The notes under the pieces were generated by a model. It saw only the letters and a program-made list of their open reading frames with translations, did not search any database and had not been told where the DNA came from. Both the position numbers and the translations under genes were made by a program. A DNA stretch of 64,000 nt from Henricia sp. BOLD:AAB3569. Lineage: Eukaryota > Echinodermata > Asteroidea > Spinulosida > Echinasteridae. The DNA is taken from assembly GCA_037783545.1 (NCBI GenBank), contig JBBELK010001244.1, positions 62,001 through 126,000 of the forward strand, in the 5' to 3' direction. Shown here one piece after another: positions 1 to 33,953 of the stretch (the first letter of the stretch is position 1; the number at the start of each line of letters is the position of its first letter).

Positions 1-798
1 TTATAATTTGTTCCATGGTATTGAATAGGAGTTTGGTGTCCCGTGTTACCTACGCCAATGAAAATTGGCTGTAGAATGAGTTTGCATTAACCTTGGTGCC
101 ATATCTACACACAAACATTAAATTTAAGTGGCATTTGTTGAAATAAAAATAATTATTATTTACTGGGAAACCACTTTCAATCACTAAAAACACTTGGAAA
201 TCTTAAAAAGCATGTCACACTTTTGGACCACTAATTTTGGGAATGACCCACATCTGAAGTCTTTGTGAAATTTACCATCGGGTCTTACTTTTCTTTTCAA
301 AATAATCAAAGAAAATTTGACAAAATGACCGTTTTATGGTATGTCGGACATTACAGTTAGAACAATGCAAAATTGTGCACGCTATTTGCATCAATAATGG
401 TACAGATAGAAAACACTATGTGTATTTTTATAGTCGTCTCACAAACTTCACAGGGATCGAAATTAACCTGAATTTCATGCTGGTCAGAAGGACCAGTAGA
501 TTAGAGAACTCTACTGATCCTGCTGAAAATGTGGTGGTCCACTGGCATTTCCAAAATGGCACCGAGATATATTTATTTATTTATTTATTCACAACATCCA
601 ACAGCGGGAGGACCGCCAATTACAGGAATGGGATCAATTAACATACAATAACTATCAACTTCTAAGTTGAATTAGAAATGGCCAGAGACACCAGGGAATC
701 CCTCCACTTGCTCTTCACGAAAGCACAATGTCTTCTTTAAGGGATACTAATGTATAAGAAAAAGTCAAACATATTTACTTTACGCCAATTTTGAACAG
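1..798. other. DHX36 intron, no coding signal; SINE/LINE tail fragments
   Basis: I see no exon here. At about 569-690 a TTTA microsatellite is followed by a sequence that recurs at 31405-31530, which looks like the 3' end (read on minus) of a SINE or LINE. At about 680-740 there is a piece of the repeat seen again at 6240-6480 and 12590-12720. Confidence 0.6.
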
Positions 799-919
799 AG
801 AGCTGTTGTTGACATGGAGCCACAAAATGAACAAAACATCCGAACGTTACTGGAAGATGTTAAGACTAGCCAACCAGGAGAAGGAGCAGCTATGGATGGT
901 GATGGGTCAACCACTTCAA
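799..919 (+). CDS. DHX36: DHX36 exon, N-terminal region
   Basis: The acceptor ends in TTGAACAG and the donor is gtgagt. The exon encodes [20 protein letters not shown] and a Gly/Ser-rich tail, matching the segment after the DHX36-specific motif in vertebrates (ERAVVHMD...). It starts in phase 0 and ends with one extra base, which the next exon completes. Confidence 0.85.
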
Positions 920-3900
920 GTGAGTCTCTTGGCTTGTTTTAAAGTATATTGTCTCTGTTAACCCTCCTACTCCTGCTGGTAGGCTATGGCCAACAGTTAG
1001 ACTGCTAAAAACTGTCCAGCTGGAAGGTTTTGAGCGGTCTAAAAACTACTAGAGACTAGCCATGGCTCACTGCAGTTTTGTGTGGAAACCCCCATGGGTG
1101 TAATAAGAGCTCCTGTTGAACATGTGTGGTGTCCATGTAGCATAGGGAAAACAAGAATCTCATAATCGGTGAGAGATTGCCCATCGAAAACAAATGAAAA
1201 CAGCAGCACACTATACTATATGTGGAGTGCTGTGGCGGAGCGGTCTAGTGGAGCGGTCTAGTGGATTGTATTCAAAACCCAGGGAGCTGAGATGGTATAT
1301 GGAGTGATTTAATGGAGTCCTATGATCAGGGGTAATGATAGGGGTAAGCGCCTTGACCGGGGTTCCCCTGATAAATGCACAGTATAAGTCCATATTACCA
1401 GTGAATGTTGATGTGTTTGATTAGCCATTGAGCTCCTAAGGCAGCCGGGGCTGAGATGGTATATGGAGTGATTTAATGGAGTCCTATGATCAGGGGTAAT
1501 GATAGGGGTAAGCGCCTTGACCGGGGTTCCCCTGATAAATGCACAGTATAAGTCCATATTACCAGTGAATGTTGATGTGTTTGATTAGCCATTGAGCTCC
1601 TAAGGCAGCCGGGGCTGTATACTCCCCAGGGAGCTGAGACGGTATATGGAGTGATTTAATGGAGCCCTATGATCAGGGGTAATGATAGGGGTAAGCGCCT
1701 TGACCGGGGTTCCCCTGATAAATGCACAGTATAAGTCCATATTACCAGTGAATGTTGATGTGTTTGATTAGCCATTGAGCTCCTAAGGCAGCCGGGGCTG
1801 TATACTCCCCAGGGAGCTGAGACGGTATATGGAGTGATTTAATGGAGTCCTATGATCAGGGGTAATGATAGGGGTAAGCGCCTTGACCGGGGTTCCCCTG
1901 ATAAATGCACAGTATAAGTCCATATTACCAGTGAATGTTGATGTGTTTGATTAGCCATTGAGCTCCTAAGGCAGCCGGGGCTGTATACTACCCAGGGAGC
2001 TGAGACGGTATATGGAGTGATTTAATGGAGTCCTATGATCAGGGGTAATGATAGGGGTAAGCGCCTTGACCGGGGTTCCCCTGATAAATGCACAGTATAA
2101 GTCCATATTACCAGTGAATGTTGATGTGTTTGATTAGCCATTGAGCTCCTAAGGCAGCCGGGGCTGTATACTCCCCAGGGAGCTGAGACGGTATATGGAG
2201 TGATTTAATGGAGTCCTATGATCAGGGGTAATGATAGGGGTAAGCGCCTTGACCGGGGTTCCCCTGATAAATGCACAGTATAAGTCCATATTACCAGTGA
2301 ATGTTGATGTGTTTGATTAGCCATTGAGCTCCTAAGGCAGCCGGGGCTGTATACTACCCAGGGAGCTGAGACGGTATATGGAGTGATTTAATGGAGTCCT
2401 ATGATCAGGGGTAATGATAGGGGTAAGCGCCTTGACCGGGGTTCCCCTGATAAATGCACAGTATAAGTCCATATTACCAGTGAATGTTGATGTGTTTGAT
2501 TAGCCATTGAGCTCCTAAGGCAGCCGGGGCTGAGATGGTATATGGAGTGATTTAATGGAGTCCTATGATCAGGGGTAATGATAGGGGTAAGCGCCTTGAC
2601 CGGGGTTCCCCTGATAAATGCACAGTATAAGTCCATATTACCAGTGAATGTTGATGTGTTTGATTAGCCATTAAGCTCCTAAGGCAGCCGGGGCTGTATA
2701 CTCCCCAGGGAGCTGAGACGGTATATGGAGTGATTTAATGGAGTCCTATGATCAGGGGTAATGATAGGGGTAAGCGCCTTGACCGGGGTTCCCCTGATAA
2801 ATGCACAGTATAAGTCCATATTACCAGTGAATGTTGATGTGTTTGATTAGCCATTGAGCTCCTAAGGCAGCCGGGGCTGTATACTCCCCAGGGAGCTGAG
2901 ACGGTATATGGAGTGATTTAATGGAGTCCTATGATCAGGGGTAATGATAGGGGTAAGCGCCTTGACCGGGGTTCCCCTGATAAATGCACAGTATAAGTCC
3001 ATATTACCAGTGAATGTTGATGTGTTTGATTAGCCATTGAGCTCCTAAGGCAGCCGGGGCTGTATACTCCCCAGGGAGCTGAGACGGTATATGGAGTGAT
3101 TTAATGGAGTCCTATGATCAGGGGTAATGATAGGGGTAAGCGCCTTGACCGGGGTTCCCCTGATAAATGCACAGTATAAGTCCATATTACCAGTGAATGT
3201 TGATGTGTTTGATTAGCCATTGAGCTCCTAAGGCAGCCGGGGCTGTATACTACCCAGGGAGCTGAGACGGTATATGGAGTGATTTAATGGAGTCCTATGA
3301 TCAGGGGTAATGATAGGGGTAAGCGCCTTGACCGGGGTTCCCCTGATAAATGCACAGTATAAGTCCATATTACCAGTGAATGTTGATGTGTTTGATTAGC
3401 CATTGAGCTCCTAAGGCAGCCGGGGCTGTATACTCCCCAGGGAGCTGAGACGGTATATGGAGTGATTTAATGGAGTCCTATGATCAGGGGTAATGATAGG
3501 GGTAAGCGCCTTGACCGGGGTTCCCCTGATAAATGCACAGTATAAGTCCATATTACCAGTGAATGTTGATGTGTTTGATTAGCCATTGAGCTCCTAAGGC
3601 AGCCGGGGCTGTATACTACCCAGGGAGCTGAGACGGTATATGGAGTGATTTAATGGAGTCCTATGATCAGGGGTAATGATAGGGGTAAGCGCCTTGACCG
3701 GGGTTCCCCTGATAAATGCACAGTATAAGTCCATATTACCAGTGAATGTTGATGTGTTTGATTAGCCATTGAGCTCCTAAGGCAGCCGGGGCTGAGATGG
3801 TATATGGAGTGATTTAATGGAGTCCTATGATCAGGGGTAATGATAGGGGTAAGCGCCTTGACCGGGGTTCCCCTGATAAATGCACAGTATAAGTCCATAT

Positions 3901-6900
3901 TACCAGTGAATGTTGATGTGTTTGATTAGCCATTGAGCTCCTAAGGCAGCCGGGGCTGTATACTCCCCAGGGAGCTGAGACGGTATATTGAGTGATTTAA
4001 TGGAGTCCTATGATCAGGGGTAATGATAGGGGTAAGCGCCTTGACCGGGGTTCCCCTGATAAATGCACAGTATAAGTCCATATTACCAGTGAATGTTGAT
4101 GTGTTTGATTAGCCATTGAGCTCCTAAGGCAGCCGGGGCTGTATACTCCCCAGGGAGCTGAGACGGTATATGGAGTGATTTAATGGAGTCCTATGATCAG
4201 GGGTAATGATAGGGGTAAGCGCCTTGACCGGGGTTCCCCTGATAAATGCACAGTATAAGTCCATATTACCAGTGAATGTTGATGTGTTTGATTAGCCATT
4301 GAGCTCCTAAGGCAGCCGGGGCTGTATACTCCCCAGGGAGCTGAGACGGTATATGGAGTGATTTAATGGAGCCCTATGATCAGGGGTAATGATAGTGATG
4401 AAATAACGGTACCCATATTTAACTGGACGGAATTGAACTTTTCATTAGGTCTGACAGCAGTTTGAAGTAAACATTTATGCTGTTTAATACCCAACAGGAA
4501 GAAACCCAGAAGAGGAAAGGTTGCATTCCTTCTATCAGTATGTCATAGGCCGGGATTCTGCACTTGACAAAAGACTAGCGATGGAGCTTGAGAACAAGGC
4601 TAGTGACCAGCGTTATATGGATATGCAACGATTCCGTCAGAAACTACCATCATACAACATGAGACACGTAAGGCTTGCCATAATAGGTCATTACATGAAA
4701 ACAGGACCTACATGTAGTGTTTCATTTATGTTGTGATGCTTCAGGAGTGGATTCTTTATAAATATCACAATTGCAATATAAAGAAGTTTTATCTCTTAAA
4801 TATCCTAACTCTTAAGACATCTTAACTATCGCGAGGGTCACACGAGAAAAATCTTGTATTTACTCTATCATGATATGATTGTAATAGTTCCAACGACGAA
4901 TATTTAAAAGACAAATATTGCCTTACGAGATGGCTGCTTTTCTATACAGTCTATTCATGTATTCTTGGGTGGAAAGTGAAAACTTGTGGCAAACTGCCTT
5001 GCCCAAGGACACAACAGATAAACTGCACTGGTACCTGCAATATTTTAATAGAGTGAACAGATCTTAAACTTAAGCCACTAGACTGCTCGACAATAGAACT
5101 GTACATAAATATTTAATGTCTCAACTCTCTATTCTCTCATTGTACAGGAGCTACTACGTCTAATAGATCACAACCAGGTTGTTGTTATTAGCGGTGAGAC
5201 GGGGTGCGGAAAAACCACCCAGGTGCCCCAGTTTATACTAGATGACTACATTGAGAGAAGTCAGGGTTCCATGTGTCGTGTTGTTTGTACCGGTACACAG
5301 CCGAGACGAATATCCACCATATCGGTGAGTTACCACAAAAATCATTAAATGAGAAAACGGCGAAGTTTACCGGCAAAGAATTTGGGGACATTTTACTGAT
5401 TTACACAATAAGTTGCATTTACATTACATTTAAGACAGTTTAGCGCAAAAATCTGCTTAGCACAGAATTATTGCAACAATGCGTTACCAGCCAAAATCGT
5501 ATATGTGACATTGAATTTTGGCTGGTAACATACATTTATAAAGCAAACAAATTCTGTGCTAAACAAGTTTTTGTGCTAAACAGCGCCATTAAATTGGCCT
5601 TGAATGCTAATAATGGTCCCGAGCTGAAGGCGAGTCCAATTTGTAGTTTTTGTGAGCATAATACTTGTCTCATAAAATTATAAAATGTTGATTTTCGTTC
5701 CTCAGGTGGCAGAAAGAGTCGCTTCGAGAGAGCAGAGGGTTGCGGGAATGGATACAGTGCTGGCTACCAAATCAGACTGGAGGCCAGACTACCGCGCCAA
5801 CAGGGCTGCATTCTCTATTGCACAAATGGCATACTCTTGAAGTGGCTGGAATCAGACCCGTAAGCTAAACATTCATATCATTGACAATGACCAAATACTT
5901 AACTATATACACTACTCACAATAAGTTAGGGATATTGGTGTGGTTCAATTTTGCATTTTTTTCTTCAAATGACTGTTTTCACCTATTCCTGTGACAATGT
6001 GCGTCTGTCATGCAGATACAATTGTCTAATCGTATACAAAATCATTCAAGTGGAATGCATACCCTCAAAAAAAATATCTGCGTACACCCCACATCCCACA
6101 TTATCCCTGACTTTTTGTAAGTAGTTTAAGTCTTCTCTCAAAGCATTACTTCGAGTACATCCGCTGCACTCATGTTGTTGCGCTGATACATTGGTGTAAG
6201 CCTTCCTTTTTGTCTTAAGTGTCCTAGTGGCTCAGCTATGGACACGGCCAGAGACACCGGGGAATCCCCTAACTCTTCACGAAAGAATGCTCTGGGATCT
6301 TTTAGGTGCGTTACACAACACACTGGACCAACGGCTTTACATCCCTTCAGAAGGATGGAGCAAGTGTGTTTAAGTGCCTTGCTCAGGGTCACAGGTACCC
6401 CAGCCGGGTATCGAACCCGTAACTCCAAGTTTTCACCCAAGTATTGGCTACGGTACCCCACACAAGTTTCTGCTTATAACAAGGTCATCCGCAAAGTCCT
6501 AAGGATTTTCTTATTTGCGAGGGGTGTGAAGAGATTTTTGAGTAAAACGGAGCTCTAAAAATAACAATCGCATTTTCTGCACGAGTTGATTCTGTGGTGT
6601 TACAGTGCGATGTGTATCAAATTTACACACGTTAATGGGTGAAAATGCTCAATGTGAACGCAGCCTAATCTTATCCACTACCATTTAATTACAGCCTCCT
6701 TGAAAGCGTCAGTCACATCGTTCTGGACGAGGTCCATGAGAGGGACATCATCTCAGATCTTCTTCTTGTCATCATCAAGGATATTTTGCCTCGGAGGTAA
6801 GAAATCTCTTTCGTCATTTACACTAATCCCAATAAGTTAGGGATATTGTGGGGTGTACGCAGATATTATATTGAAGGTTAAATACAAAATATAAATAATG

Positions 6901-9900
6901 TAATAATGTAATGGTGGACACTTGTATAGCGCACATGTCTACCCTAGGGTACTCCTGGCACTGTTGCCATTAACATCATCGCTGAAGTTAGATTGTGGCA
7001 TTACCCCTAACAGCTCCCCAAATATCGCTTGGGTTGATGAGGCAATTGAGATTAAGTGTCTTGCCATCAGACACAAACACGTTGACACAAGTGGGGCTCG
7101 AACCCCCAATCCTTCGATCACAAGCACGGCTGGATACCCACTAGACCACACGTGCCCACCAAGTAAAAAAATGAAGCCAAGCTTTTGATGTGATGCACCT
7201 ACTTCAGGGCTTAGTAGGCTTTTGATGTTGCGCGTTGAGAACGAATGCGTCAAGGTCGATGTTGGTCCCAGATGGATGCAGCGTACCCAGTTGGAAAATA
7301 ACACGCTGCTCCATTGCGTGATGCGTGTTTGACGTAGCTGTTGACATGACACAGACGCTCATGTCCTTCGTCGAATGTAAAGGGGCGTTGAAGTGCTGGG
7401 CCACAGCTAAGCCAGGCAAGTTGAGACGAATGCTCCTCAGGTGTTCGGTAAAACGATCCGCCAAATGGTGCTTAGTTTCACCGATGTACAGCTTTCTGCA
7501 GCATTGTGCATAGGATACAAATATTTTATTGAAGGTATACATTCCGCTTGAATGAGTTTGTATATATGCATGACAGACACACCTTGTCACAGGAGTAGGT
7601 GAAAACAGTCATTAAAAAAATATATAAAAATTACAACATACCAATTATATCCCTAAGTTATTGTGAGTGGTTTATTTCCTGATATTTGTTTTTTCAGAGC
7701 AGTAGCACAAATAGTTTCATGAGGTGACAGATTTAATGTTCTGTTGCACTGAATGAAATTGAAGGATGAATTTAGAAACACGAGAAAATTGCAGTGCCCC
7801 GACTGGGATTCGAACCCAGGTCCTTTGGCTTACATGGCCAATTGCTCTACCAACTGAGCTATCTGGGCATCCCGCCGGAGCACCACAACAATCTCGTGTT
7901 TGCCTCTCTTTTTCCAACAATACAGTGGGACAAATCCATGCCAACCAATTGGCTACACTGAAACAAAATCCACACATGTGACTTTCGTGGCAAGCTAACT
8001 CTTTTGCCGAGACCAAAATTCGAACCTGGGTTCTGAGACCTGATATGACCAGTGCTCAAGCCAATTCGCGTTCACATTTGAATTTTACTTGTATCTAAAC
8101 CTCCCTAATGTTTTGTTTCAGACCAAGTCTTAAAGTGATCCTGATGAGTGCAACACTCAATGCTCAATTATTCTCATCGTATTTCAACGGTTGCCAGATG
8201 GTCGAGATTCCTGGGTTTACTTTCCCAGTCATGGAGTATTGGCTGGAAGACGTGCTACAAATCACCAAGTGAGTTTAAGATTTAGAGCTCAGGGGTGGAT
8301 TGCAATAAAGACAGCTAGGGCGTCCTAGGAGGACGTCCTAACTCAGACATCACTAAGACATCATAGATTATTTTGCCTTGCAATAAACATGTATGTATCC
8401 CAACTTGTGACCTAGGACACATAAAATTTAAGACACCTAATATGTGTCCTAAGTTATGTCATAAACTCAGTTAGGTCATATGATGTGTCTCAGACTTAAG
8501 ACGGTTATATTGCAATCCACCCCTGGTGTTGAGTTTCTTTACTCTATTATATTAAAGAGGCTGTGTCACGGTTTGCGCATGCGCAGCAAAACTTTAAAAG
8601 TTTGGGTTAACCTTTTTAAGTTCGCTCGGATTTGCATATCCCATTCAATCTTGGCCATCCCTTATAATTCTTTAGTAATTCTGGCTGTGGTATACTTGTC
8701 AACTGTTAGGTTGTCCTGATGCATTACTTTCTATTTGAAATGGCACTGTTTCACAAAGTGCTCAAAGACGCGTGTTGGGAAATGTCACTCTTCTTATCTT
8801 GAGACGTTGGTATGGGAATTAGGATGCATTAAACTCATCTTAACTTTTGTGAAAGCGATCGCTGGTCTCAGTGGTTAGACGATTATTTGTACTAACTGGC
8901 GAGACCTGTTACTTTAAATACATGACACATTGTCATAGTGCGTCATGCACGAGTAGGCACTTTGTGGATCTATTGTCACATCATTTTAAATATGAAAACC
9001 TGCCCCTGTCATGGCTGCCGGTGCAAAGAGTCTATAAACATCTTGAATCCTTTTGCATTGTACAGATACAAGCCTCTGGAGCAGCAAGAGCGTTTTGAAC
9101 CAATTTGGAAGGGGGAAGGGGGAAGGGGGAGGGGGGAGCATGGGGGAGCGCACGCTCCCCCCTTTTAAACAAAAAACAAAAAAACACATTCCACTTTTTG
9201 TGCACACTTTTTCTGCTTAAAGTATTTAATTATTGCCTCGGATCGCACCACAGAGCATCTAGAATCCATCTAGGAGCCGTTAGGGCTTCGCGCTACGCCC
9301 TTGTATTTCATTGTCATCAGCATTTCATGCTTAAAAATTTCACGCCCCGCCCCCTTTTCAAAATCCTGGATCCGGCCCTGTAATATACCTTCCAAAAATA
9401 CTGTCTATTAGAAGAAAGCAAAAAGGTTGGCGTAATGACTGCATTGGTTATGTAAAGCCGGCCGTACACCTTGCGTTTCGTCCATGATCCGATCACGATA
9501 GCGCATGTTGTGCAGTCGCATCACAAGGTGTACAGGTTTTGTGATGCGTTCCAATGGCAATGCGTTCCAATGGCGATGTGGTCCCTAAAACAAAAATACA
9601 GAATGGGAATGAGAAAAATATGATACATGATATGGTATCAAAATCCCAGCAACCCTGGGTAAAATAAAGGGACTCAAAAATGTGTTTTGGTCACGCTCCT
9701 TAAAAATGACTTGATATTTCAGTAAGGAGCTTTTTGTTTTCTTCCATGAGACTCAAAGCCATATCACATATATCTTTGCAAATATATTCTTTTAAAAAAT
9801 GTTTGCGAATATTTACAAACATATTTGCAAAGATATGTATGACATCGCAAATACATTTGTTTGCAAAGATATCTATGTTATATGATGTCCCTTGTAAGCC

Positions 9901-12900
9901 GTCATAAAACCCTATGCAGCTGCAAGTGCGTCAGAAACCCTACACGAGCATGCGTCCATGCCAGCACAAAAATGGAGGCGCAATGTCTTCTCCAGAAAAA
10001 TATATGGAGCTAACTGGTTTGACTGTACTTGTGATGTAATCTTTCCGTTTCTCTTATTTTTGTCAAAGTGTGATTTTATAGTTTTTCCTTTGCTACATGA
10101 CATTCTGCCTTGTCATGACTTATCACGTGACTTGTCACGTGTCTTGTCATGTTGACTTGTCATGTGTTGTCAGGTGACTCATCATGCCTCTTGTGATTGG
10201 CTTATTTTTCCCTAGTCCGTCTACAGCACCACCAGTACCATCAAATTACACACTTAATTTCTTTTGCTACCTGACATCAGGGGCGTTCGAGATGCATATA
10301 CCGGGTAACGGGGGGTTACACCACAGACGTACCCGCTCGGGCAGTAGTGGCTGCCACAGGGGCAGACTCGTGTAGCACGTGATGGCTAAAAAAAAACGCT
10401 CCGGTGTAAGTTGGTGTTACCTGGTGTAAGCATCTCAAACGCCCCTATAGTGACTCATCATGTACCTTGTCATGTGACTGATTGTCTCCTATTTCCCTCT
10501 GTCCACAGCGCCACCAGTACCATCCAATCACACACTGACATTGTGACTCATCATGAACCTTGTCATGTGACTGATTGTCTCATATTTCCCTCTGTCCACA
10601 GCGCCACCAGTACCATCCAATCACACACTGACATTGTGACTCATCATGTACCTTGTCATGTGACTGATTGTCTCATATTTCCCTCTGTCCACAGCGCCAC
10701 CAGTACCATCCAATCACACACTGACATTGTGACTCATCATGTACCTTGTCATGTGACTGATTGTCTTGTATTTCCCTCTGTCCACAGCGCCACCAGTACC
10801 ATCCAATCACACACTGACATTGTGACTCATCATGTACCTTGTCATGTGACTGATTGTCTCATATTTCCCTCTGTCCACAGCGCCACCAGTACCATCCAAT
10901 CACACACTGACATTGTGACTCATCATGTACCTTGTCATGTGACTGATTGTCTCATATTTCCCTCTGTCCACAGCGCCGCCAGTACCATCCAATCACACAC
11001 TGACATTGTGACTCATCATGTACCTTGTCATGTGACTGATTGTCTCATATTTCCCTCTGTCCACAGCGCCGCCAGTACCATCCAATCACACACTGACATT
11101 GTGACTCATCATGTACCTTGTCATGTGACTGATTGTCTCATATTTCCCTCTGTCCACAGCACCGCCAGTACCATCCAATCACACACTGACATTGTGACTC
11201 ATCATGTACCTTGTCATGTGACTGATTGTCTTGTATTTCCCTCTGTCCACAGCGCCACCAGTACCATCCAATCACACACTGACATTGTGACTCATCATGT
11301 ACCTTGTCATGTGACTGATTGTCTCATATTTCCCTCTGTCCACAGCACCGCCAGTACCATCCAATCACACACTGACATTGTGACTCATCATGTACCTTGT
11401 CATGTGACTGATTGTCTCGTATTTCCCTCTGTCCACAGCGCCACCAGTACCATCCAATCACACACTGACATTGTGACTCATCATGTACCTTGTCATGTGA
11501 CTGATTGTCTCGTATTTCCCTCTGTCCACAGCGCCACCAGTACCATCCAATCACACACTGACATTGTGACTCATCATGTACCTTGTCATGTGACTGATTG
11601 TCTTGTATTTCCCTCTGTCCACAGCGCCGCCAGTACCATCCAATCACACACTGACATTGTGACTCATCATGTACCTTGTCATGTGACTGATTGTCTCATA
11701 TTTCCCTCTGTCCACAGCGCCACCAGTACCATCCAATCACACACTGACATTGTGACTCATCATGAACCTTGTCATGTGACTGATTGTCTCATATTTCCCT
11801 CTGTCCACAGCGCCACCAGTACCATCCAATCACACACTGACATTGTGACTCATCATGTACCTTGTCATGTGACTGATTGTCTCATATTTCCCTCTGTCCA
11901 CAGCGCCACCAGTACCATCCAATCACACACTGACATTGTGACTCATCATGTACCTTGTCATGTGACTGATTGTCTCATATTTCCCTCTGTCCACAGCGCC
12001 GCCAGTACCATCCAATCACACACTGACATTGTGACTCACCATGTACCTTGTCATGTGACTGATTGTCTTGTATTTCCCTCTGTCCACAGCGCCACCAGTA
12101 CCATCCAATAATACATCCCAAGCCAAACCTCAGAAGATGAACAACGCTGACAGTGAACTTAACAAACTGGAGCAACAACTGCAGGACATCAAGGAACAGG
12201 TCAGACAGGCATTTAGCAGCCATTCAAAGTTGTCAAAATTAACACGGTTCTACAGAGCATAGTATTTTTCAAGACCCCCTTCCTCCCCCGAAATACTACT
12301 TATCAACATTTTTCTGTCAGTACCATGAAGTGTCAACAATTGACAGTGCATGTAAAGTCATATGCAGCCCTCGACACCCACCCCGTCGTCCTTCCTGCGT
12401 TTTGTACAACCGTAAAAATGTTGACAACTTTGGACGGCCCCTTAGCCAATGGATAATCATGTCTTAAACAACTTTGGACGGCCCCTTAGCCAATGGATAA
12501 TCACGTCTTAAACAACGTACATATCTATGCAAGTGGCTGAGGGTACTGTTAGTATTATCAGGAACCACATACATGTAGGCGGGTGGCCAGAGACGCCGGG
12601 TAATCCCCTTCTCTTTATGAACGAATGCTCTGGGATGTTTTAAGTACATTACCTAGAACTTTACATCCCATCTGAAGGATGGAGCAATTGGGGTCAAGTG
12701 CCTTGCTCAAGGACCTGAAGAGTGGTCATTCTTTGGGTGGTTTCACTCGGAGTTGGCAATTCTATTGCCACGGTACTCCCACAGTTAGTCAGTTTTGGAC
12801 GGTCAAAAATTTGTTGCCAAATTTGACCCAACCATGAGAAATGAGTTGAGTTTGTGCCAAGTTTTTGGAATCAGTTCCCATTATCTTTGCAATTTCAAGA

Positions 12901-15900
12901 CGGAATCTAGATTCTCAACTTGGAATTGATTCCAATCGATTCCAGAGATGATTCATCCGATTTCTTGAGGTGGACTTGTGATTTTTATTTTGACAACTGT
13001 GGGCATTTCTCTCCCCAGGGAGCTTAGACGGTTTAAGGAATGGTATAATTAAGCCCAGTGTTATCAGCCTAGCATAAAGGTGTTGTATATGGAAGTATAA
13101 GAGTCGGTTGCCAGCATTCTTGTCGTGTTTGGGGTTCACGACTTAAAACGATCCCCGCACTTCGGTGCAAAGTAAAGAGTTTGTTGGCTCCACTCGTCGT
13201 GTTTGGGGTTCACGACTTAATACGTCCCCCGTTGTAAAAAAATTATGTTCATGATAAACCTATAAGATTTGCACCAGCAGCTGGGGCTGTATACTCCCCA
13301 GGGAGCTGAGACGGGATATTTTGATGATTTTTTTTTCACAACGACCATTAAAAAGTATTGTCAATGCTGCTACATCACTGAATCGTGTAAACAGTAGGCC
13401 GGTGTGTACCTTTAAATGATGTAACAAAGTGCCTACTCATGCACGATGACAATGTGACTGCCCCCTGTCATGTCCGTCCGTGCTAAGGGTCTATTTTTGT
13501 TCAGAGAGTGCTTGCTGCTACAAGCAGTTTTTGTTACGTTAAAAGGAGGGACGAAACTAATATCGATGAATTCAATCAAAAATATTACCGATGTATTTCA
13601 GCTTTTAAATACAAGTAAGACACAGGGTTAATCCTAAATCAGATTAATGCTACAATAATACAACAACAAATAAATAGAATTGAAATTAAAGCTAAACCTG
13701 TATGTATTCTTAGAAAAGGGAAGGCACTGTAGCTTGTTAAATCATATTTTTTGGTAAAATGAGAAAGTCAGTAATAATCATTTGTCACACATTCTGACAT
13801 TACATGTAACGTCGGTTACCGTGACAATGTCCTTATAATGATCCAAAGAGCCGTGTATCATAGGGTGCAGGATATGTTGTGTCATAGAATAACATGCTAC
13901 ATGTAACGTCGGTTACCGTGACAATGTCCTTATAATGATCCAAAGAGCCGTGTGTCATAGAGTGCAGGATATGTTGTGTCATAGAATAACACGCTACATG
14001 TAATGTCGGTTACCGTGACAATGTCCTTATAATGACCCAAAGAGCCGTGTGTCATAGGGTGCAGGATATGTTGTCATAGAATAACACGCTACATGTAACA
14101 CTGAGTCATTTTAAAGGTAGTACACATGATTGGTAAAGTGTTAAAACTGCCCTGTGGAAATTTCAGCCACATAGGTGGAGTAATACTTCTGAAAACTTTA
14201 ACAATCCATGCATGGTATTTGTGTTGAGTTGAATGGTAAAAAACATTTTTTTGTAGACTTTTGTTTTTTAAAACCACCTTCAGTTGTTAATTTCTGACAC
14301 AAAAAACCATTTTGGACTGAAAGAAACATCATGTGGTGTTTGTTTTTCTTGTCAACTTGTGAACAAAAATCAGGGTCACTGCAAATGGTGTGTTCTACCT
14401 TTAAGGGCATTATACATGTAATGTTTTAAACCATGAAAATGCCGAGTATCATTTGCTCACTATTTTTCTCTCTCTTATCTTTAGACCATATGCCCAGTTT
14501 GTTTGGACCGAATCAAGAACATGATATTCCTATGTGGTCACGGTACATGCCAGCTGTGCGGCGACCGAATGTCTGAATGCCCAATCTGTCGTAAGTCTGT
14601 GGAGAAACGTATTCTGTTGTACTGATCCCCATATATCAGTAACATCCAGAGTCAAACCATGTCCATAAATCATCGCTGTACGTATATGTACAGTACATTC
14701 ATATTTAGATTTTAGAGGATATCTTTTCTATTTTAGAATATCCAACAAAATTTGGGCGTTTAACAAAACAGATGCCACCAAAAGTTTGACGTGGAAAGTC
14801 TACATTCGATGTGTGAATGCGCGCGCGTCATGCATGAAGAAAAAGGTCGACACGAGCATTGCTAAACTTGCGATCAAGTATATTATTATGCCGTCTAATC
14901 CCGAGAAAAGAGCACTTTTTCTTCGCAAACATTGTTTGTGTTTAAATAATCTAGGCTTCCTAAATAAACTTCAACCTCTAAATCAGGTATTCGTTTTCAA
15001 ATCAAATTTGACGTATTTGTGCAATGAGTGAATACACTGATGTCGATCGCTCTGTCAGAAAAGGCCCTCTCCGACATGAAATGCTTGGTGGTGATCTTAT
15101 TGTGAAACGCCCGAATTGTGTAAAAAAGCTTTCGAAACATTATGAATACGATAAATTGTATTATATTATAAAAACTTGTGTTGTAAAACAAGGGAACTTG
15201 TATTACTTTGACAACAGCAGTATTACCCGTAGAAAACTCTCCCTTTGTAATATTTCTGATAGCGACACTCGGTGAAAAATGTCTAATTTATCTGGCTCCA
15301 TAAAGCAGTGCAGCGATTATACCAACCTTTTTGGTTTCACATCCAAATTGGAGATTGCAAATTACCTGTTTTCTTCCCATGGATTGTATTTTGAGGAAAC
15401 ATAACATAATTTTTATCAGCGCAGAGGACCCTAGCCATTTTAAAACGGATTGTATAAGACTATTCTAACCTACTTTTAATCCCTTCATCAATGTGTTTTT
15501 GTGTAAATGGGAAAAACTCACCAAAATTAGCTTGTTGTTTTGCTATGTTGTGCATTCACTGCATTCTAGATGTATGTCAAGATGTTTTTGTTCGACCGCG
15601 CGCGTATTGCAGGCGTGTTGTACGTACACGCACACGACCGGATACTTAAGTGCACATTTTGCTTTCGAGCGTGCAGTTTTCGTGTGTGTGCGTTTCAATA
15701 CGTGCTGACCAGGGCGCGGACGCTGACGCACGGCGCGGCCACGCGCCTCTACTGCACATGTGCCTAACATGTGTGGCATGTTGCTAGGCAATTTCTAAAT
15801 GGGCGGAGCTTACTGGATCAGTCTATTGAGAAGTTGATCATGGCTGCAGATCTGGTGTGCAAAACATTTGAGACAGGCTGAACAGTTTCTAAGTGTTTTC

Positions 15901-18900
15901 TAAGAAAATCTTTCATTTTTTCCACTGTTAAATTTGTTAAATTTGGAGCATGGGGGGCGCACGCTCCCCCTTTTAAACAAAAATCAAAAAACACATTCCA
16001 CTTTTTGTGCACACTTATTCTGCTTAAAGTGGTTAATTATTGCCTCGGATCGCACCACAGAGCATCTAGGAGCCGTTAGGGCTTCGCGCTACGAGCTCGC
16101 TATTTCATTGTCATGAGCATTTCATGCTTAAAAATTTCACGCCCTGCCCCCTTTTCAAAATCCTGGATCCGGCCCTGTAATATACCTTCGAAAAATACTG
16201 TCTATTAGAAGAAAGCAAAAAGGTTGGCGTAATGACTGCATTGGTTATGTAAAGCCGGCCGTACACCTTGCGTTTCGTCCATGATCCGATCACGATAGCG
16301 CATGTTGTGCAGTCGCATCACAAGGTGTACGGGTTTTGTGATGCGTTCCAATGGCGATGTGGTCATGATTTTGTGTACGTGTCCGTCGCAACGCAATCAC
16401 AGAATTTCAAGCATGCTCGAAATTTGGCGTGTCTGCAATCGCAACGGAGTCGGAACGCAAGGTGTACGGCCGGTAAATTAGTTTACCAAAACAATCAGTG
16501 GATTTTTGACGATATCCCTAAAAAAATATACAGATTCAGAGGGCAAAATTTCAGAATGGGAATGAGAAAAATATAATACACGATATGGTATCAAAATCCC
16601 AGCCACCCTGGGTAAAATAAGGGACTCAAAAATGTGTTTTGGTCACGCTCCTTAAAAATGACATGATATTTCAGTAAGGAGCTTTTTGTTTTCTTCAATG
16701 AAACTCTTTTTTTGTTTTTGTCTTGCAGATATTCAGAAGAAGTCGTGCATTATTTGCAGAACTTGGACCATGAGAAAATGGATCTTGACCTAATGTCGGT
16801 GCTGATCAAACATATCTGCCTCAATAAACCGGTATGTAAGGCCCGTTTCAAACGTCGCGGTTGCGCCGTGTCGAATAAAATTTAATTTAGCGGGACAGTA
16901 GCACGGCGTAAGTACAGTAGTGGTTTCAAACGTCAAACTTAATTGCAAACTCCCAGTCGAACTTAAATACATCCAACATGGCGGATGAGTCGTGTGCACG
17001 TCATGGACGTTGTGCATGTGCGTTTTCCATTCTGTCCACTGTAAGTCGCCATATTTTCGCAATCCAATTAATGTACAGGAGCCCTTACAATTGGTCAGGA
17101 ACTTTCATCCTTTACTTTGTTCTGTGTCATTTATAGTTGACTTGAACAAGACTAACATCCTTCATTCCCTACATGTAGTTATGACCTGTATATGTGTCTG
17201 TATTTGTCTGTACTTCAGGATGGCGCTCTGCTAGTCTTTCTTCCAGGCTGGGAACAGATCTCCAAGCTAAATGATCTCCTGACCCAACAGCAGATGTTTA
17301 GGAACAGTAACTTTCGCATTATTCCACTGCACTCAATGATGCCAACAGTTAACCAGAGACAGGTAGGTTTAGACCAGGTGGTTTGTGTTCTTAAGCAAGG
17401 CAGTTTGTCACAACTGTCCTTTCCACTCGGAATAAATGTGGGAAATTTGTACATTGAGGTTTTAGAAACACTATTTGTTACCCTTTTAAAGTGTAAGGTA
17501 GATCTCCTTGGAACAACTTCAATTTATTCAATACAATTTTCAAAGCCATTTGTTTGAAATCTTTTTCCTTTGCTTGTCAAATATAGCCTTTTTATTTATT
17601 GAAAGAACCAGTGTTAAGCTAAAAGCTTTTGTGGCAAAAAAAAAACGGGAAAAAAAACCCAAAACAGTGCATGATCAAATTTTGTCGAGGATATGGATTT
17701 GAATCTATAATTTACCAGTAATATCACAAATACTATCCAGGGCAAGTAAACAGAAAATGTTTAAGTTGTGTTTAAAATTTGATTATGTTTAGGTGGAAGA
17801 TACGTGAGTCTTTCCACGGTAAAGGGGGCATTTTGGCAGCACAGACCATATTTTCAAGAAAATACCTTTGTCTGGTCTCAAAATAAAATAAATAAGTTTC
17901 AGTTGTTCTGAAGAGATAACTTGGGCCCAAAACAGGTTACAAATAGTGTGACAACATGCCTTTCTAAAAACCCTGTGTACAAATTTGCCTAAAATGTAAC
18001 ACAGGTGTCCGTCCCAGTTACGAGCATATATTGAGACCAGACAAAGGTATTTCCTCGAAAATATGGTCTGTGTTGCCAAATTGCCCCCTTTACTGCAGAA
18101 AGAACCACTTGTAAGCTTCATGCAATAATATGGTCTGTGTTGCCAAAATGCCCCCTTTACTGTAGACCACTTGTAATTAAGCTTCATGCAATAATATGGT
18201 CTGTGTTGCCAAAATGCCCCCTTTACTGTAGAAAGACCCACTTGTAAGCTTCATGCAATAATATGGTCTGTGTTGCCAAAATGCCCCCTTTACTGTAGAA
18301 AGACCCACTTGTAAGCTTCATGCAATAATATGGTCTGTGTTGCCAAAATGCCCCCTTTACTGTAGAAAGACCCACTTGTAAGCTTCATGCAATAATATGG
18401 TCTGTGTTGCCAAAATGCCCCCTTTACTGTAGACCACTTGTAATTAAGCTTCATGCAATAATATGGTCTGTGTTGCCAAAATGCCCCCTTTACTGTAGAA
18501 AGACCCACTTGTAAGCTTCATGCAATAATATGGTCTGTGTTGCCAAAATGCCCCCTTTACTGTAGAAAGACCCACTTGTAAGCTTCATGCAATAATATGG
18601 TCTGTGTTGCCAAAATGCCCCCTTTACTGTAGAAAGACCCACTTAAAGCTTCATGCAATAATATGGTCTGTGTTGCCAAAATGCCCCCTTTACTGTAGAC
18701 CACTTGTAATTAAGCTTCATGCAATAATATGGTCTGTGTTGCCAAAATGCCCCCTTTACTGTAGTAAGACCCACTTGTAAGCTTCATGCAATAATATGGT
18801 CTGTGTTGCCAAAATGCCCCCTTTACCGTAGACCACTTGTAATTAAGCTTCATGCAATAATATGGTCTGTGTTGCCAAAATGCCCCCTTTACTGTAGAAA

Positions 18901-21900
18901 GACCCACTTGTAAGCTTCATGCAATAATATGGTCTGTGTTGCCAAAATGCCCCCTTTACTGTAGAAAGACCCATATGTAAGCTTTATGCAATTCAGCCTA
19001 CGGACCGTGAAGTAAAACCCATTAAAACAAATCTGAAAAATAATGCCAAAAAGGAAATCATGACAAATTCTCTGATCACACAACAGGTGTTTGAGCGACC
19101 TCCACAGGGGGTCCGCAAGATCGTCATAGCAATGAGTATCGCAGAAACGAGTATTACTATCGAAGACGTCGTTTACGTGCTCAACCTCGGACGCGTCAAG
19201 GAAGGAAACTTTGACGTGGCCAAAAATCTGAGCACGCTCGAACCGGAATGGGTCAGCGTCGCCGCTGCGCGTCAACGAAGTGGCAGAGCTGGCAGGTGTG
19301 TTAATTTATAAAAACCTAAGGGTGGATTCCAGGGTTGTAGTCGAGTCCATTACAAGTCCTCACAAGTCCACCACAAGTCCCTGGGTCTTAATTCAAGTCA
19401 CAAGCTATTCAAATGAACTCCAACAAAGGCATTCTGTTGTGCGTGTTCATCCTTTGCTTCTTGTGACGGACTTGTGCAGGATTGTCAAGGACTTGTGATT
19501 TTTTCGGCTCTGGACTTGTGATAGACTTGTGATGGACTCGACTACAACCCTGGGGGGTTCACATTGAAAAGTTATCACACGTTGCGTGTGTAAATTTGAC
19601 GCTGTCATTTTGAGAAAATGCGATGCAGGTGAACACATTCTTATCAGCAGGGGATCAATCTTGATCCCGAGCTTGGGACCAGTGTAAACACGGTCTTATG
19701 CATAGTTCCGACCTGTCAATCAAGCCGAACCCGCCGACCAATCACAACAGAGCTAGCAGACAGCACCCACATAGGTCAAAGTGATGCAATCATCACAACA
19801 ACCACACGATTTTCTGCCCATACAGTTTGTATGTTGTATGCGCCAGAGACCGGGTGAATTTTGGTTTCAATGTCGGGCGATTCGCTGTTCAAAGGTAGGA
19901 AAGCGCATTTTTATGAATATATGTCATCCCTGCATTACTAGCCCTTCGCTCAGTGTGTGCTATGGTAACTGTCGACCCTAAAACATAAATACCTTTGAGT
20001 TTTCTCCAATGAATCTGTGCTTTCCATGCCGAGTCCTGTTGCTTTGTACGTTGTGTCGCCATTTTTTTGCGATGGCTTGTGAGCACATAGCAACAATATC
20101 TAAGGGGCGGGGTTAACTGGGCAATCTCGGAACTATGCATTGTAGGGCTAATGTGGACAAATGTCTATACAGATATCTTGTCAGTTCTCCCGCAATAACC
20201 AGATTTTTCTGTCTAAATCACATTAACTTGAAATATCTTGCGCTTTATCACAGAGTGCAGCCGGGCGAGTGTTACCATCTGTACAACCAACTCAAAGCCT
20301 CCATGTTAGTCGAGTACCAGTTGCCAGAAATGCTTAGAACGCCGCTGGACGAACTCTGCTTACAGATCAAGGTACCAATTAAAAAGGAGCTAGTTCGGAT
20401 TTTTCAGGAAAATATATTTCGTTCTAACTTAACAATCGTGTAAAATATTTCCCCAAAATACTATCTTCATGCAATTCAGCCTACGGACTGTGAAGTAAAA
20501 CCCATTAAAACAAATCCGACAAAATAATGCCAAAAAGCGAATCACGGCAAATTCTCTGATGACACAACAGGTGTTTGAGCGACCTCCACAGGGGGTCTGC
20601 AAGATCGTCATAGCAACGAATATCGCAGAACTTAATCGTGTAAAATATTTCCCCAAAATACTATCCATGGTAAGAAAATGGGAAATTTGCAATCTCTGAT
20701 TTGGAAGCAAAAAAGTTGGTGTAATTACTGCACTGCACTGCTTTATGAAACCAGAAAATTAGTTTACAAAACATTGGTGATGTTTTGTTGAAATCATTGA
20801 AGATACACGGATTGCGAGCGTGTAATTTTGGAATGGTAATGAGAAATATATCTTCTTATCTTGGGACGTTGGTATGGGAATTAGACGCATTGATCTCGTC
20901 TTAACTTTTGTGAAATCGATCCCATGTCTCAGTGGCTAGTTGATAATTTGTACCAACTGTCGAGACCCGTTACTTGATTTAAATACACTACCACGCGTCT
21001 TAGGAAAGGTCACTCTTTATATCTTGGGACCTTAGTATGGGAATTAGGATGCATTGAACTTGTGGTAATTTTTGTGAAATTGATACCATGTCTCGGTGGT
21101 TAGATGATAATTTGTACTAACTGGCGAGACCCGTTACTTGATTTAAATACATGACCAGGGGCTGATTTAATTAAAGTTCAGAAGTTTGTTCAATGATTTT
21201 CTTTTGAATTTGGTATCATTGGAAAGCCCCGTTATTCCTCTTTACAATGATGTGTCAATGGTTAAGCAATTGGGGGATGTGCAGCACAGCTGAATAGGGG
21301 GGTGGGTATAAAGTGAAATGTCACAAAATGCATTGCTATTGTCAAAAAGTGTATGGACACATTCCCATCCCCCAAGCAAAACGGGAATGCACTGCATGAC
21401 AATGTCTCTCTATTTTGGAACTGCCCAATTTGACCATTCCGCTGAAAATATAGGCCCTATGCACGGGCGGCCATGACAGGGGGCAGTCACATTGTCACCG
21501 TGCGTCATGCACGAGTAGGCACTTTGTGGATCTATCGTCACATCATTTATATAAGAAAACCTGCCCCCTGTCATGGCCGCTGGTGCAAATGGTCTATTAA
21601 CAAAATATCGTGATTAAGTTTGTTTTGACTTTCACTATATAATTTGTGTCTGTTTTGTTTTATTTGTTTCTAGAATGCCCTCGATGAGAACGAGGACCTA
21701 ACTCCCCTCGGACACCACCTTGCCCAGCTCCCTGTCTCCCCTGCCATTGGTCGTATGATCCTCTTTGGTGCCATGTTTTGCTGCCTAGATCCAATCCTGA
21801 CTATCGCTGCTAGTCTTAGCTTCAAGGATCCCTTTGTCATCCCCCTGGTAAGCCTAAAGGATCGTGTCCAGATCACATTTTTGACCTCTCCCCATTTTTC

Positions 21901-24900
21901 CCATGGGTGGTGAGATTTTCATACCATATCATTTTGTCATATTTTTCTCATTACCATTCTTATTTTTTGCGCTCTCAATCTGTATATTTTCATGTGTTCC
22001 ATAAAGCAGTGCAGTAATTACACCAATTGTTTTGCTTCCACATCCAAATTGAGGATTGCAAATTTCCTGTTTTCTTCCCATGGATAGTATTTTGGGGAGG
22101 CATTTTATATGATCGTTAGGTTAGAACGAAATCCATTTTCTGGAAACATCTGAACACGCTCCTTGAAATGTACTTTTTACTTGTGCTTTTTGACAGGGCA
22201 AAGAAAAAATGGCTGACGCGCAGCGGAAACTGATTTCAGAGAACACGTACAGCGATCATTTGATGCTTGTTAATGCTGTGGCTGGGTGGGAGGATGCGAG
22301 GGATCTCGGAATTCAGGAGGAGAATGACTACTGCTGGAGGAACTTTATGTCTGTTAACACTCTCAAGGTATAAAGAAAAATACTTGTGAAGATTCGAACC
22401 TGAGACCTCTATAATACAATAGGGAAATGCTCTACCAGCTGAGCTATGAGGCACAGCTGTATACTGCCTTAGGTTTCCACCAAGACCTCTGACACACCGG
22501 GCAGATGCTCTACCAGCTGAGCTATGAGGCACAGTGGTATACTGCCTCAGGTTTCCACCAAGACCTCTGACACACCGGGCAGATGCTCTACCAGCTGAGC
22601 TATGAGGCACAGAGGTATAGTCCCTCAGGTTTCCCCCGAGACCTCTGATGCACTGGGCAGATGCTCTACCAGCTGAGCTATGAGTTACAGTGGTACTCCC
22701 TTAGGTTTTCCCCCAAGACCTCTGACACACCAGCTGAGCTATGAGGCACACCAGCTGAGCTATGAGGCACAGAGGTATACTCCCTCAGGTTTCCCCCGAG
22801 ACCTCTGATGCACTTGGCAGATGCTCTACCAGCTGAGCTATGAGGCACAGAGGTATACTCCCTCAGGTTTCCCCCGAGACCTCTGATGCACTTGGCAGAT
22901 GCTCTACCAGCTGAGCTATGAGTTACAGTGGTACTCCCTTAGGTTTCCCCCAAGACCTCTGACACACCAGGCAGATGCTCTACCAGCTGAGCTATGAGGC
23001 ACAGAGGTATACTCCCTCAGGTTTCCCCCGAGACCTCTGATGCACTTGGCAGATGCTCTACCAGCTGAGCTATGAGTTACAGTGGTACTCCCTTATGTTT
23101 TCCCCCAAGACCTCTGACACACCAGGCAGATGCTCTACCAGCTGAGCTAGGAGGCACAGTGGTATAGTCCCTCAGGTTTTCCCCAAGACCTCTGATGCAC
23201 CGGGCAGATGCTCTACTAGCTGAGCTATGAGGCACAGTGGTATAGTCCCTCAGGTTTTCCCCAAGACCTCTGATGCACCGGGCAGATGCTCTACCAGCTG
23301 AGCTATGTGGCACAGTGGTATACCCCCTCGGGTTTTCTCCCAAGACCTCTGACACACCGGGCAGATGCTGTACCAGCTGAGCTATGAGGCACAGTGGTAT
23401 ACTCCCTCAATAATTTGTTAAATCCACAATCACAGATTTATTTTATTTTTAATGTTTCTTTTTACTATGAATCTTTTAAAGATGCCACATACCTTTTGAT
23501 GTATGTTTTTTTCTCTCGTAGATGTTGGACAATATGAAGACCCAATTCTGTGAGCATTTGGCAACACTGGGCTTTGTAGGAGGCAAATCATGCAAGCAAC
23601 GAGCAGGCAATAGGAACTCAAGTAAGCCATTTTGTTTCAATTTTGATATGTGACCTGTCCGGACGAAATGAGCAAGTTTTTTTTTAATTGGATATTTTCA
23701 AAAATTGGATATTGGTATTTTTGATTTCAGCTTTCCAATAGTATATAAAAACACAAGGTAAAACTATTGCCCCAACACAACACAGCTTGTTCAAACAAAT
23801 TTTACAAATCTTAAAACAAAATCTCTTACTCTTACGAGTTACAAAAAAGCTATCTTCAAAATTGGTATAGACAAATCTGGATGCAGTGAAAAACGACAAG
23901 GTTCCACCGGGATTCGAACCGCGGACCTTCTGCTCAATGTGCAGACGCCCTACCAATTGAGCTATGAAGCCAACTGGTGGTCTCGAATCACGGTAGTGCA
24001 GATGTTTCTCACTGATTGGGATTGGCTATCACGTGAGCTAAACAAGCCCTACAGAGGGATAAACCCTTCAATATGGTAACCACCCCTCCCAGAGATCTCT
24101 TAAGACACAACTCAAACCCGAGGTCATTATCCCTAAACAGAAATCACCTATTTATACTTGATGGTTTTTCTATTTAACTTCAGACAATCGTCAGTTGGTC
24201 AAGGCAATACTGTGCTCTGGTCTTTACCCAAACGTGGCTCAAATAAAGGAAAATACATTCAACAGACGAGCTGGGAAACACAGGTGAGGAAGTGTGTCAA
24301 ATGCACAGATATCTATTAACAACAAGATAAGAAACGGAGGCCGTACGCGCATAACCGCGCCTTCTCATTAGCATAGTTTTGGGCACCTCATTTGCATACT
24401 TTTGGGCACCTCATTTGCATGGTTTTGGGCACTTCCCCATTGAATTACACGTAAAACCTCTCGCATGCTCACTTTCTCAATGTTTGTGACGACCGCGCGT
24501 GTTATGTTCGAACACAAAACGCGTTACACGCACACGCGTTCCAAGCTGCCTGAAACCGGTTCCAGTGATGTGCCATTCAATAACACAGTCGTTTCTTATC
24601 TTGTTATTAATAGATATCTGTGGTAAAATGTCAGAACTTTTCATGTTAACCCTCCGACATGCAGCGCACATGAAATTACACGGGGACTCAAAAGAAGCGT
24701 TGTACCCTAGGGTCGCAAACAGCTGTTGTTTACATTGTGGCATCAGATAGGTAGGATGTTTGATAACTTCTAATTTCCAGGGTACACAAAGATTTTTTTT
24801 TTGGGGGGTGGGGGGTGGTGTTGGATGGCGTTGGATGGCATAGTGGTAGAGCGCTTGTCCCCTAAACCATAGGCCATGGGTTCAAATCCCGGCCAGGGCA

Positions 24901-27900
24901 CCCTCAGTTCACCCAGCTGTGAATGGCTAGCTAGCCTCCAACCGAAGGTACAGGCAGCGGAGGAAGGAACTGTCCACCCTACTCCATTATGCCGAGGCTC
25001 AGGACACAATGCCAAACACTCATTGGAGTATGGGACTACCCTTAGTTCACCCACAGCTGCGGGTAGCTATAGACCAAGTGAATGTACAGGCAGCGGAGGA
25101 AGGAACTGACCACCCTACTCCATTATGCCGAGGCTCAGGACACAATGCCAAACACTCATTGGAGTATGGGACTACCCTCAGTTCACCCACAGCTGTGGGT
25201 AGCTATATAGACCAAGTGAATGTACAGGCAGCGGAGGAAGGACTGACCACCCTACTCCATTATGCCGAGGCTCAGGACACAATGCCAAACACTCATTGGA
25301 GTATGGGACTACCCTTAGTTCACCCACAGCTGTGGGTAGCTATAGACCAAGTGAATGTACAGGCAGCGGAGGAAGGAACTGACCACCCTACTCCATTATG
25401 CCGAGGCTCAGGACACAATGCCAAACACTCATTGGAGTATGGGACTACCCTCAGTTCACCCACAGCTGCGGGTAGCTATAGACCAAGTGAATGTACAGGC
25501 AGCGGAGGAAGGAACTGTCCACCCTACTCCATTATGCCGAGGCTCAGGACACAATGCCCAACACTCATTGGAGTATGGGACTACCCTTAGTTCACCCACA
25601 GCTGCGGGTAGCTATAGACCAAGTGAATGTACAGGCAGCGGAGGAAGGAACTGACCACCCTACTCCATTATGCCGAGGCTCAGGACACAATGCCAAACAC
25701 TCATTGGAGTATGGGACTACCCTTAGTTCACCCACAGCTGTGGGTAGCTATAGACCAAGTGAATGTACAGGCAGCGGAGGAAGGAACTGACCACCCTACT
25801 CCATTATGCCGAGGCTCAGGACACAATGCCAAACACTCATTGGAGTATGGGACTACCCTCAGTTCACCCACAGCTGCGGGTAGCTATAGACCAAGTGAAT
25901 GTACAGGCAGCGGAGGAAGGAACTGTCCACCCTACTCCATTATGCCGAGGCTCAGGACACAATGCCCAACACTCATTGGAGTATGGGACTACCCTTAGTT
26001 CACCCACAGCTGCGGGTAGCTATAGACCAAGTGAATGTACAGGCAGCGGAGGAAGGAACTGACCACCCTACTCCATTATGCCGAGGCTCAGGACACAATG
26101 CCCAACACTCATTGGAGTATGGGACTACCCTCAGTTCACCCACAGCTGTGGGTAGCTATAGACCAAGTGAATGTACAGGCAGCGGAGGAAGGAACTGTCC
26201 ACCCTACTCCATTATGCCGAGGCTCAGGACACAATGCCAAACACTCATTGGAGTATGGGACTACCCTCAGTTCACCCACAGCTGTGGGTAGCTATAGACC
26301 AAGTGAATGTACAGGCAGCGGAGGAAGGAACTGACCACCCTACTCCATTATGCCGAGGCTCAGGACACAATGCCAAACACTCATTGGAGTATGGGACTAC
26401 CCTCAGTTCACCCACAGCTGTGGGTAGCTATATAGACCAAGTGAATGTACAGGCAGCGGAGGAAGGAACTGACCACCCTACTCCATTATGCCGAGGCTCA
26501 GGACACAATGCCAAACACTCATTGGAGTATGGGACTACCCTTAGTTCACCCACAGCTGTGGGTAGCTATATAGACCAAGTGAATGTACAGGCAGCGGAGG
26601 AAGGAACTGACCACCCTACTCCATTATGCAAGGCTCAGGACACAATGCCCAACACTCATTGGAGTATGGGACTACCCTTAGTTCACCCACAGCTGCGGGT
26701 AGCTATAGACCAAGTGAATGTACAGGCTGCGGAGGAAGGAACTGACCACCCTACTCCATTATGCCGAGGCTCAGGACACAATGCCAAACACTCATTGGAG
26801 TATGGGACTACCCTCAGTTCACCCACAGCTGTGGGTAGCTATATAGACCAAGTGAATGTACAGGCAGCGGAGGAAGGAACTGACCACCCTACTCCATTAT
26901 GCCGAGGCTCAGGACACAATGCCCAACACTCATTGGAGTATGGGACTACCCTCAGTTCACCCACAGCTGTGGGTAGCTATATAGACCAAGTGAATGTACA
27001 GGCAGCGGAGGAAGGAACTGACCACCCTACTCCATTATGCCGAGGCTCAGGACACAATGCCAAACACTCATTGGAGTATGGGACTACCCTTAGTTCACCC
27101 ACAGCTGTGGGTAGCTATAGACCAAGTGAATGTACAGGCAGCGGAGGAAGGAACTGACCACCCTACTCCATTATGCCGAGGCTCAGGACACAATGCCAAA
27201 CACTCATTGGAGTATGGGACTACCCTCAGTTCACCCACAGCTGTGGGTAGCTATAGACCAAGTGAATGTACAGGCAGCGGAGGAAGGAACTGACCACCCT
27301 ACTCCATTATGCCGAGGCTCAGGACACAATGCCAAACACTCATTGGAGTATGGGACTACCCTCAGTTCACCCACAGCTGTGGGTAGCTATATAGACCAAG
27401 TGAATGTACAGGCAGCGGAGGAAGGAACTGACCACCCTACTCCATTATGCCGAGGCTCAGGACACAATGCCAAACACTCATTGGAGTATGGGACTACCCT
27501 CAGTTCACCCACAGCTGTGGGTAGCTATAGACCAAGTGAATGTACAGGCAGCGGAGGAAGGAACTGACCACCCTACTCCATTATGCCGAGGCTCAGGACA
27601 CAATGCCAAACACTCATTGGAGTATGGGACTACCCTTAGTTCACCCACAGCTGTGGGTAGCTATAGACCAAGTGAATGTACAGGCAGCGGAGGAAGGAAC
27701 TGACCACCCTACTCCATTATGCCGAGGCTCAGGACACAATGCCCAACACTCATTGGAGTATGGGACTACCCTTAGTTCACCCACAGCTGCGGGTAGCTAT
27801 AGACCAAGTGAATGTACAGGCTGCGGAGGAAGGAACTGACCACCCTACTCCATTATGCCGAGGCTCAGGACACAATGCCAAACACTCATTGGAGTATGGG

Positions 27901-33931: not shown

Positions 33932-33953
33932 TAGGTAATCTACAAAATAGCTA

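Follow-up and report, generated by a model that had tools for sequence, protein, structure and literature searches.

Which acceptor does a transcript use when the 3′ splice site of one intron stands in front of its exon many times over, and does the gene pay for the copies? The question is raised by the 64,000-nucleotide stretch of Henricia sp. DNA analysed here (the window), in which an intron–exon boundary assigned to MIB1 has been multiplied into a minisatellite. The copies may be a tolerated by-product of repeat growth, or they may act on the splicing of the gene that carries them.

Results

The segment 14485-14622 matches PDB 8v0d, whose chain is described as UbcH5B-RING3 of MIB1 (E 3.9e-26, 91.9 bits), as well as the Pfam RING family (2.1e-10). 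When the 110-nt exon downstream of the array is spliced in frame to the last coding exon (Table 1), the score against PDB 8v0d rises to 126.1 bits over residues 10-83. This gain in bit score supports the predicted assignment of 12090-12199 as a MIB1 exon, together with its frame, and the joined exons match the MIB1 C terminus, in line with the identity given by the first-pass annotation. The first nine residues of the joined exons fall outside the match, so that it is the splice signal that sets the exact exon start. Pfam detected no MIB1 domain in the three forward frames of 1-9992, and a comparison of one frame of 1-14999 with sequences in PDB gave no upstream MIB1 match. The upstream intron is therefore probably longer than 10 kb, although an exon may have been missed or the gene copy may be partial.

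Table 1. Features of the MIB1 boundary region (positions in the window).
Feature	Position	Strand	Remarks
Intron stretch resembling the unit 0 tail (10258-10277)	10084..10103	+	18/20 bases
Unit 0, diverged, with a separate acceptor whose AG ends at 10226	10174..10260	+	right end approximate
Inverted-repeat element dividing unit 0 from unit 1; ends of 44 nt, 77% complementary	10279..10446	.	
Array of 18 units, 93 bp each	10450..12123	+	unit 18 retains the first 79 positions only
Array-shared part of unit 18; its acceptor, with the AG ending at 12089, leads into the true exon	12031..12109	+	
MIB1 exon, 110 nt, donor CAG|GTCAGA at 12200	12090..12199	+	joined-exon homology; donor score 3.27 (approximate matrix)
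Downstream intron, 2285 nt	12200..14484	+	
Last MIB1 coding exon, RING3 and stop codon	14485..14625	+	homology

The array itself is reported by TRF at 10450-12109 with a period of 93, 17.8 copies, 97% matches, 0% indels and a score of 3166. A script run over the 64 kb located 18 copies of the core TGTCCACAG on the + strand, every one of them inside the array, and the spacing between neighbouring cores is 93 in 17 of 17 cases; the acceptor AGs end at 10508 in the first unit and at 12089 in the last. A chance origin of the array is ruled out by the TRF result, the exact spacing and a shuffle test of the exon start, in which a degenerate pattern of 20 bases gave 19 matches with 0 mismatches (3 allowed), compared with 0.05 expected, and 0 of 100 shuffles reached 19.

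Each unit consists of the last 59 nt of the intron, up to and including the AG, the first 20 nt of the exon and a further 14 nt not shared by the true exon. A CTGAT motif resembling a branch site, a pyrimidine tract and CACAG stand ahead of the 20 exon bases, and since the intron end and these exon bases are present in all 18 units, the repeats span the exon–intron boundary. The A of CTGAT lies at about −28, with no AG from there to the acceptor, so that each unit is predicted to be a complete, self-contained acceptor module. From −19 to +1 around the AG, the same bases occur in 18 of 18 units, and the splice signal is thus kept. The first-pass annotation had described a 3′ splice site amplified 18 times at the MIB1 boundary, with decoys of almost equal strength. 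The amplification is borne out by the TRF result and the 18 evenly spaced cores, and the near-equality by the invariant bases. Its extent, 10451-12199, is corrected at the start to 10450, while the last unit does continue into the exon as described. The exon start shared by the units, given as about 21 bases, is present but 20 bases long, with 9 of the following 14 bases differing between unit 18 and the other units. The inventory of 18 units stands, but it overlooked a diverged 19th copy upstream, with an AG ending at 10226.

Units 1-17 differ on average by 1.76 bases (mean identity 98.1%), and 13 of their 136 pairs are identical; the variants sit at five positions and in a mosaic order. Higher-order block duplication among the units was not significant at any of 15 lags (lowest permutation p 0.06), and RNA structure over the first five units was unexceptional (z −0.71, with 24 of 100 shuffles equally stable or more). 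A 573-residue open frame running through the array follows from 93 being divisible by three and is not the MIB1 frame.

The 19th exon-start copy, at 10227-10246, belongs to unit 0, which starts at about 10174; its first seven codons keep their residues, with two silent changes in 20 bases. The element between unit 0 and unit 1 may be called MITE-like, a name that reflects our reading. The tail of unit 0 resembles a stretch of intron further upstream (Table 1), a match of 18/20 that was reached in 0 of 200 shuffles, and this resemblance suggests that the array was preceded by an older duplication of greater length. On our reading of the sequences, the final 14 nt of the 93-bp unit may correspond to the unit 0 tail after a deletion. 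The likely order would then be the longer duplication, the deletion and the expansion of the 93-bp form. The interval 10086-10160 resembles both unit 0 (0/200 shuffles as good) and the 93-bp unit (2/200). A still older copy within 9900-10085 was rejected, with alignments no better than those of shuffles (100/200 against unit 0 and 22/200 against the unit).

The consequences of acceptor choice follow from the reading frame, assuming a G from the previous exon. Under this assumption, all 17 acceptors of units 1-17 read 12 residues and then a stop, and acceptor 18 is the only one that reads into the complete RING. Two in-frame TGA stops occur in every unit, and from the unit 0 acceptor the frame stays open for 49 residues. 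Paired with the donor at 12200, acceptor 18 makes an exon of 110 nt, and acceptors 17 to 1 would make exons of 203 to 1691 nt. As a general rule, a stop more than about 50 nt ahead of a junction triggers RNA decay; after decoy acceptors 1-17 it lies 165 to 1653 nt ahead of the next one. It had been proposed that any upstream acceptor yields a short peptide followed by TGA and that only the last acceptor gives a working RING. Both statements hold, with the amendment that each unit has two in-frame TGAs, not one.

Acceptors and donors were scored with approximate splice matrices. On this approximate scale, the acceptors of the array reach 5.8 to 7.2 and outscore at least 7 of the 10 DHX36 acceptors nearby; among the 3493 AGs in the window, 9 to 23 lie above them. 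The decoys are therefore credible candidate acceptors. The best donor-like site in the array, CAT|GTGACT, scores 0.96 compared with 3.27 for the MIB1 donor, and 204 of the 3835 GTs in the window exceed it, again by the approximate matrix. Recursive splicing and micro-exons were considered and rejected, since C and not GT comes after the AG and even the best donor-like site of the array scores low.

Fifteen arrays, hand-picked from 48 TRF rows, occupy 22.5% of the window. In the interval 10200-29660, where MIB1 ends and ten DHX36-like segments lie, eight arrays account for 42.8% of the sequence, so that the overlap of an array with an exon end needs no special cause. Among these eight, only the MIB1 array contains an exon end (1 of 23). 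Local circular shifts over 10200-29660 placed a mean of 9.8 exon ends inside arrays, with at least one in 99.8% of shifts and one or none in 0.9%. Over the whole window the mean was 5.2, with at least one in 82% and one or none in 25%, on an exon-end set in which some ends were a few bases off; the local numbers did not change after correction. Exon ends were taken as the best AG or GT near each match. The ten DHX36 segments include two that are weak alone (the first, i-Evalue 17, and the seventh, 2.6), and negative acceptor scores were obtained for the third and the tenth. The answer to whether arrays avoid exon ends thus varies with the null used, and both shift tests are rough because the arrays are few and long.

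Other repeats and genes were recorded in the window. A copy of the DHX36 intron–exon boundary at 18993-19146, taking in the acceptor and some 60 nt of exon, occurs 1.5 kb downstream, at 20476-20630, with 92.9% identity, and by eye a stretch of the host intron is repeated on both sides; the copy may represent a second, dispersed boundary duplication within the window. An array of 136 bp x 29 at 24944-28945 lies between DHX36-like exons and covers no mapped exon end, and one of 183 bp x 16 at 1450-4395 lies upstream of the MIB1 array. The 78-bp array at 22427-23409 (about 12.6 copies) contains, on the minus strand, TAGCTCAGCTGGTAGAGCA, which resembles a tRNA A box; this minisatellite apparently grew from a tRNA-derived repeat. 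At 32600-33953, right after a C-rich short-repeat stretch, the 11-bp repeat CTACAAAATAG occurs in about 123 copies with a 99% match. A 641-residue reverse transcriptase ORF at 41930-43855 (Pfam RVT_1, 2e-25) is apparently a retroelement. Both ARAGORN and Rfam detected a tRNA-Thr(TGT)-like sequence on the minus strand at 7794-7868; a further tRNA match, also on the minus strand, at 23899-23971 came from Rfam only.

Discussion

Tandem repeats over intron–exon boundaries have been described in amphioxus as "mirages", in Adh3, the globins BflGb6 and BflGb9, troponin C and PGBD5, and length instability is reported for them (PMC3087553, PMC3902484). BflGb6 has 6 and 3 units in two haplotypes, and its mirage is homogenised inside and diverged at the edges (PMC3087553). 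The MIB1 array shares with these cases repeats that cross the boundary and an AG kept in many repeats and, with BflGb6 in particular, a homogenised inside (units 1-17) and diverged edges (unit 0 and the end of unit 18). Three features of a mirage are present: boundary-spanning repeats, a kept splice signal and homogenisation inside with the edges excluded. The array therefore appears to be a known type of repeat at large size: it has 18 units, where the reported counts reach 6 in BflGb6 and 7 in PGBD5, a comparison that does not amount to a survey. It differs from the amphioxus mirages in its host gene, MIB1, and in the diverged longer copy and inserted element at its 5′ edge. Neither a MIB1 mirage nor an 18-unit case appeared among literature titles and abstract openings, a weak search since most subscription papers lie outside it, and the junction pattern had 0 matches in viral and prokaryotic contig collections.

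It is very improbable that the array is an assembly artefact or that its unit number is wrong. Long near-identical arrays are hard to assemble, and the BflGb6 mirage is described as aberrantly assembled in one genome draft (PMC3087553). However, the units carry variants scattered in a mosaic and keep an exact 93-bp spacing, and the diverged outer copy indicates that the boundary was duplicated long ago. The chance that the array is a stage towards a new intron or exon appears slighter still. Tandem duplication of a splice boundary was proposed as such a route for the amphioxus globins, and the Rogers model of intron gain by tandem duplication is recounted in the same paper (PMC3087553). The MIB1 array resembles this model in being an intragenic duplication that covers a splice signal. 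Unlike the model, it has no new intron visible in its sequence and apparently no good donor in the unit, and the MIB1 frame meets two stops per unit.

We consider it probable that the array is a largely neutral mirage in which the last acceptor is used, and rank this reading first, with a splicing throttle second. Its origin would be a tandem duplication of the 3′ end of the MIB1 intron and the start of the next exon. Unequal exchange or gene conversion would later have enlarged the array and made its units uniform. In a genome rich in minisatellites, the array most likely serves no function itself and is tolerated as a by-product. The last acceptor is probably favoured because no other acceptor makes a short exon together with the donor at 12200; if a decoy were used now and then, the RNA would meet an early stop and probably decay. 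The anatomy, the frame with its stops, the homology and the turnover pattern are established directly. Neutrality, last-acceptor choice and decay are what we infer.

Reed and Maniatis reportedly found in 1986 that the upstream acceptor is preferred, which speaks against use of the last one. In human data with long introns, sites close to each other across the exon are described as favoured, and both introns flanking the MIB1 exon look long, which by analogy supports the last acceptor; for acceptors, the text states that the upstream preference is significantly reduced, not that it is reversed (PMC9225289). Duplicated beta-globin acceptors provide a further analogy. The distal site alone was used, again in support of the last acceptor, but splicing was very inefficient, which argues against neutrality (PMC5389562). 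The constructs of both studies, including GloC-2x3′ss, resemble the MIB1 array in having identical tandem acceptors, the upstream ones with little or partial exon; they are artificial and have two sites, whereas the array is natural and has 18 plus one.

Leaky choice would mean that upstream acceptors are used at a marked rate and part of the MIB1 RNA is lost, with no regulatory role. The acceptor cores are identical, and upstream preference is described as the rule in short-intron settings (PMC9225289). However, leaky choice would produce the long exons listed above, between introns that both look long, and we give it only a slim chance.

The support for a mirage comes from the exact anatomy and spacing and from the homogenisation of units 1-17 with unit 0 and the 3′ edge excluded, as reported for BflGb6. 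Neutrality is supported by analogy, since the authors suggest undisturbed splicing for the Adh3, globin and troponin C mirages (PMC3087553, PMC3902484). Conversely, the single exon end found inside an array, compared with a local mean of 9.8, is a hint that arrays overlapping exon ends are as a rule eliminated and that the MIB1 one may not be harmless; this hint disappears over the whole window, where a quarter of shifts are as low.

A throttle, which the first-pass annotation had raised in connection with nonsense-mediated decay, seems unlikely, although it is the strongest competitor of the tolerated mirage. The extra acceptors would bind U2AF and U2 snRNP unproductively, or yield RNAs with early stops, and thereby lower MIB1 output, perhaps in step with unit number. 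The high acceptor scores on the approximate matrix and the early stop from every decoy are consistent with this idea. In vitro, two acceptors occupied at once on one RNA can inhibit splicing (PMC5389562), and decoy exons can promote intron retention in OGT, SF3B1 and ARGLU1 (PMC8706089, PMC12017769). The MIB1 array is similar to decoy exons in offering intronic acceptors that are possibly recognised without being spliced. In contrast, decoy exons, as described there, have donors too and their retention was measured, while the MIB1 units appear, by the approximate matrix, to have no good donor. The mirages of other genes are, in addition, reported to splice normally.

Conclusions

The object is striking, and its kind is not new. 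It is doubtful, though conceivable, that unit number acts as a length-tunable brake on MIB1, and hence on Notch signalling, with each added acceptor trapping U2AF and U2 snRNP and reducing productive splicing; if it did, a germline or somatic change in repeat number would change the dose of MIB1. The locus is, as the first-pass annotation suggested, a natural test of acceptor choice, with nearly equal acceptors of which only the last gives a complete RING. A Notch-pathway gene here presents, within a single intron, a large natural series of near-identical acceptors. If splicing is clean, the spliceosome is able to bypass 17 equally good sites in favour of the site whose pairing with a donor spans a short exon; otherwise, the locus would be a natural case of repeat number setting gene output. 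Either outcome would inform which acceptor wins when sequence strength is equal.
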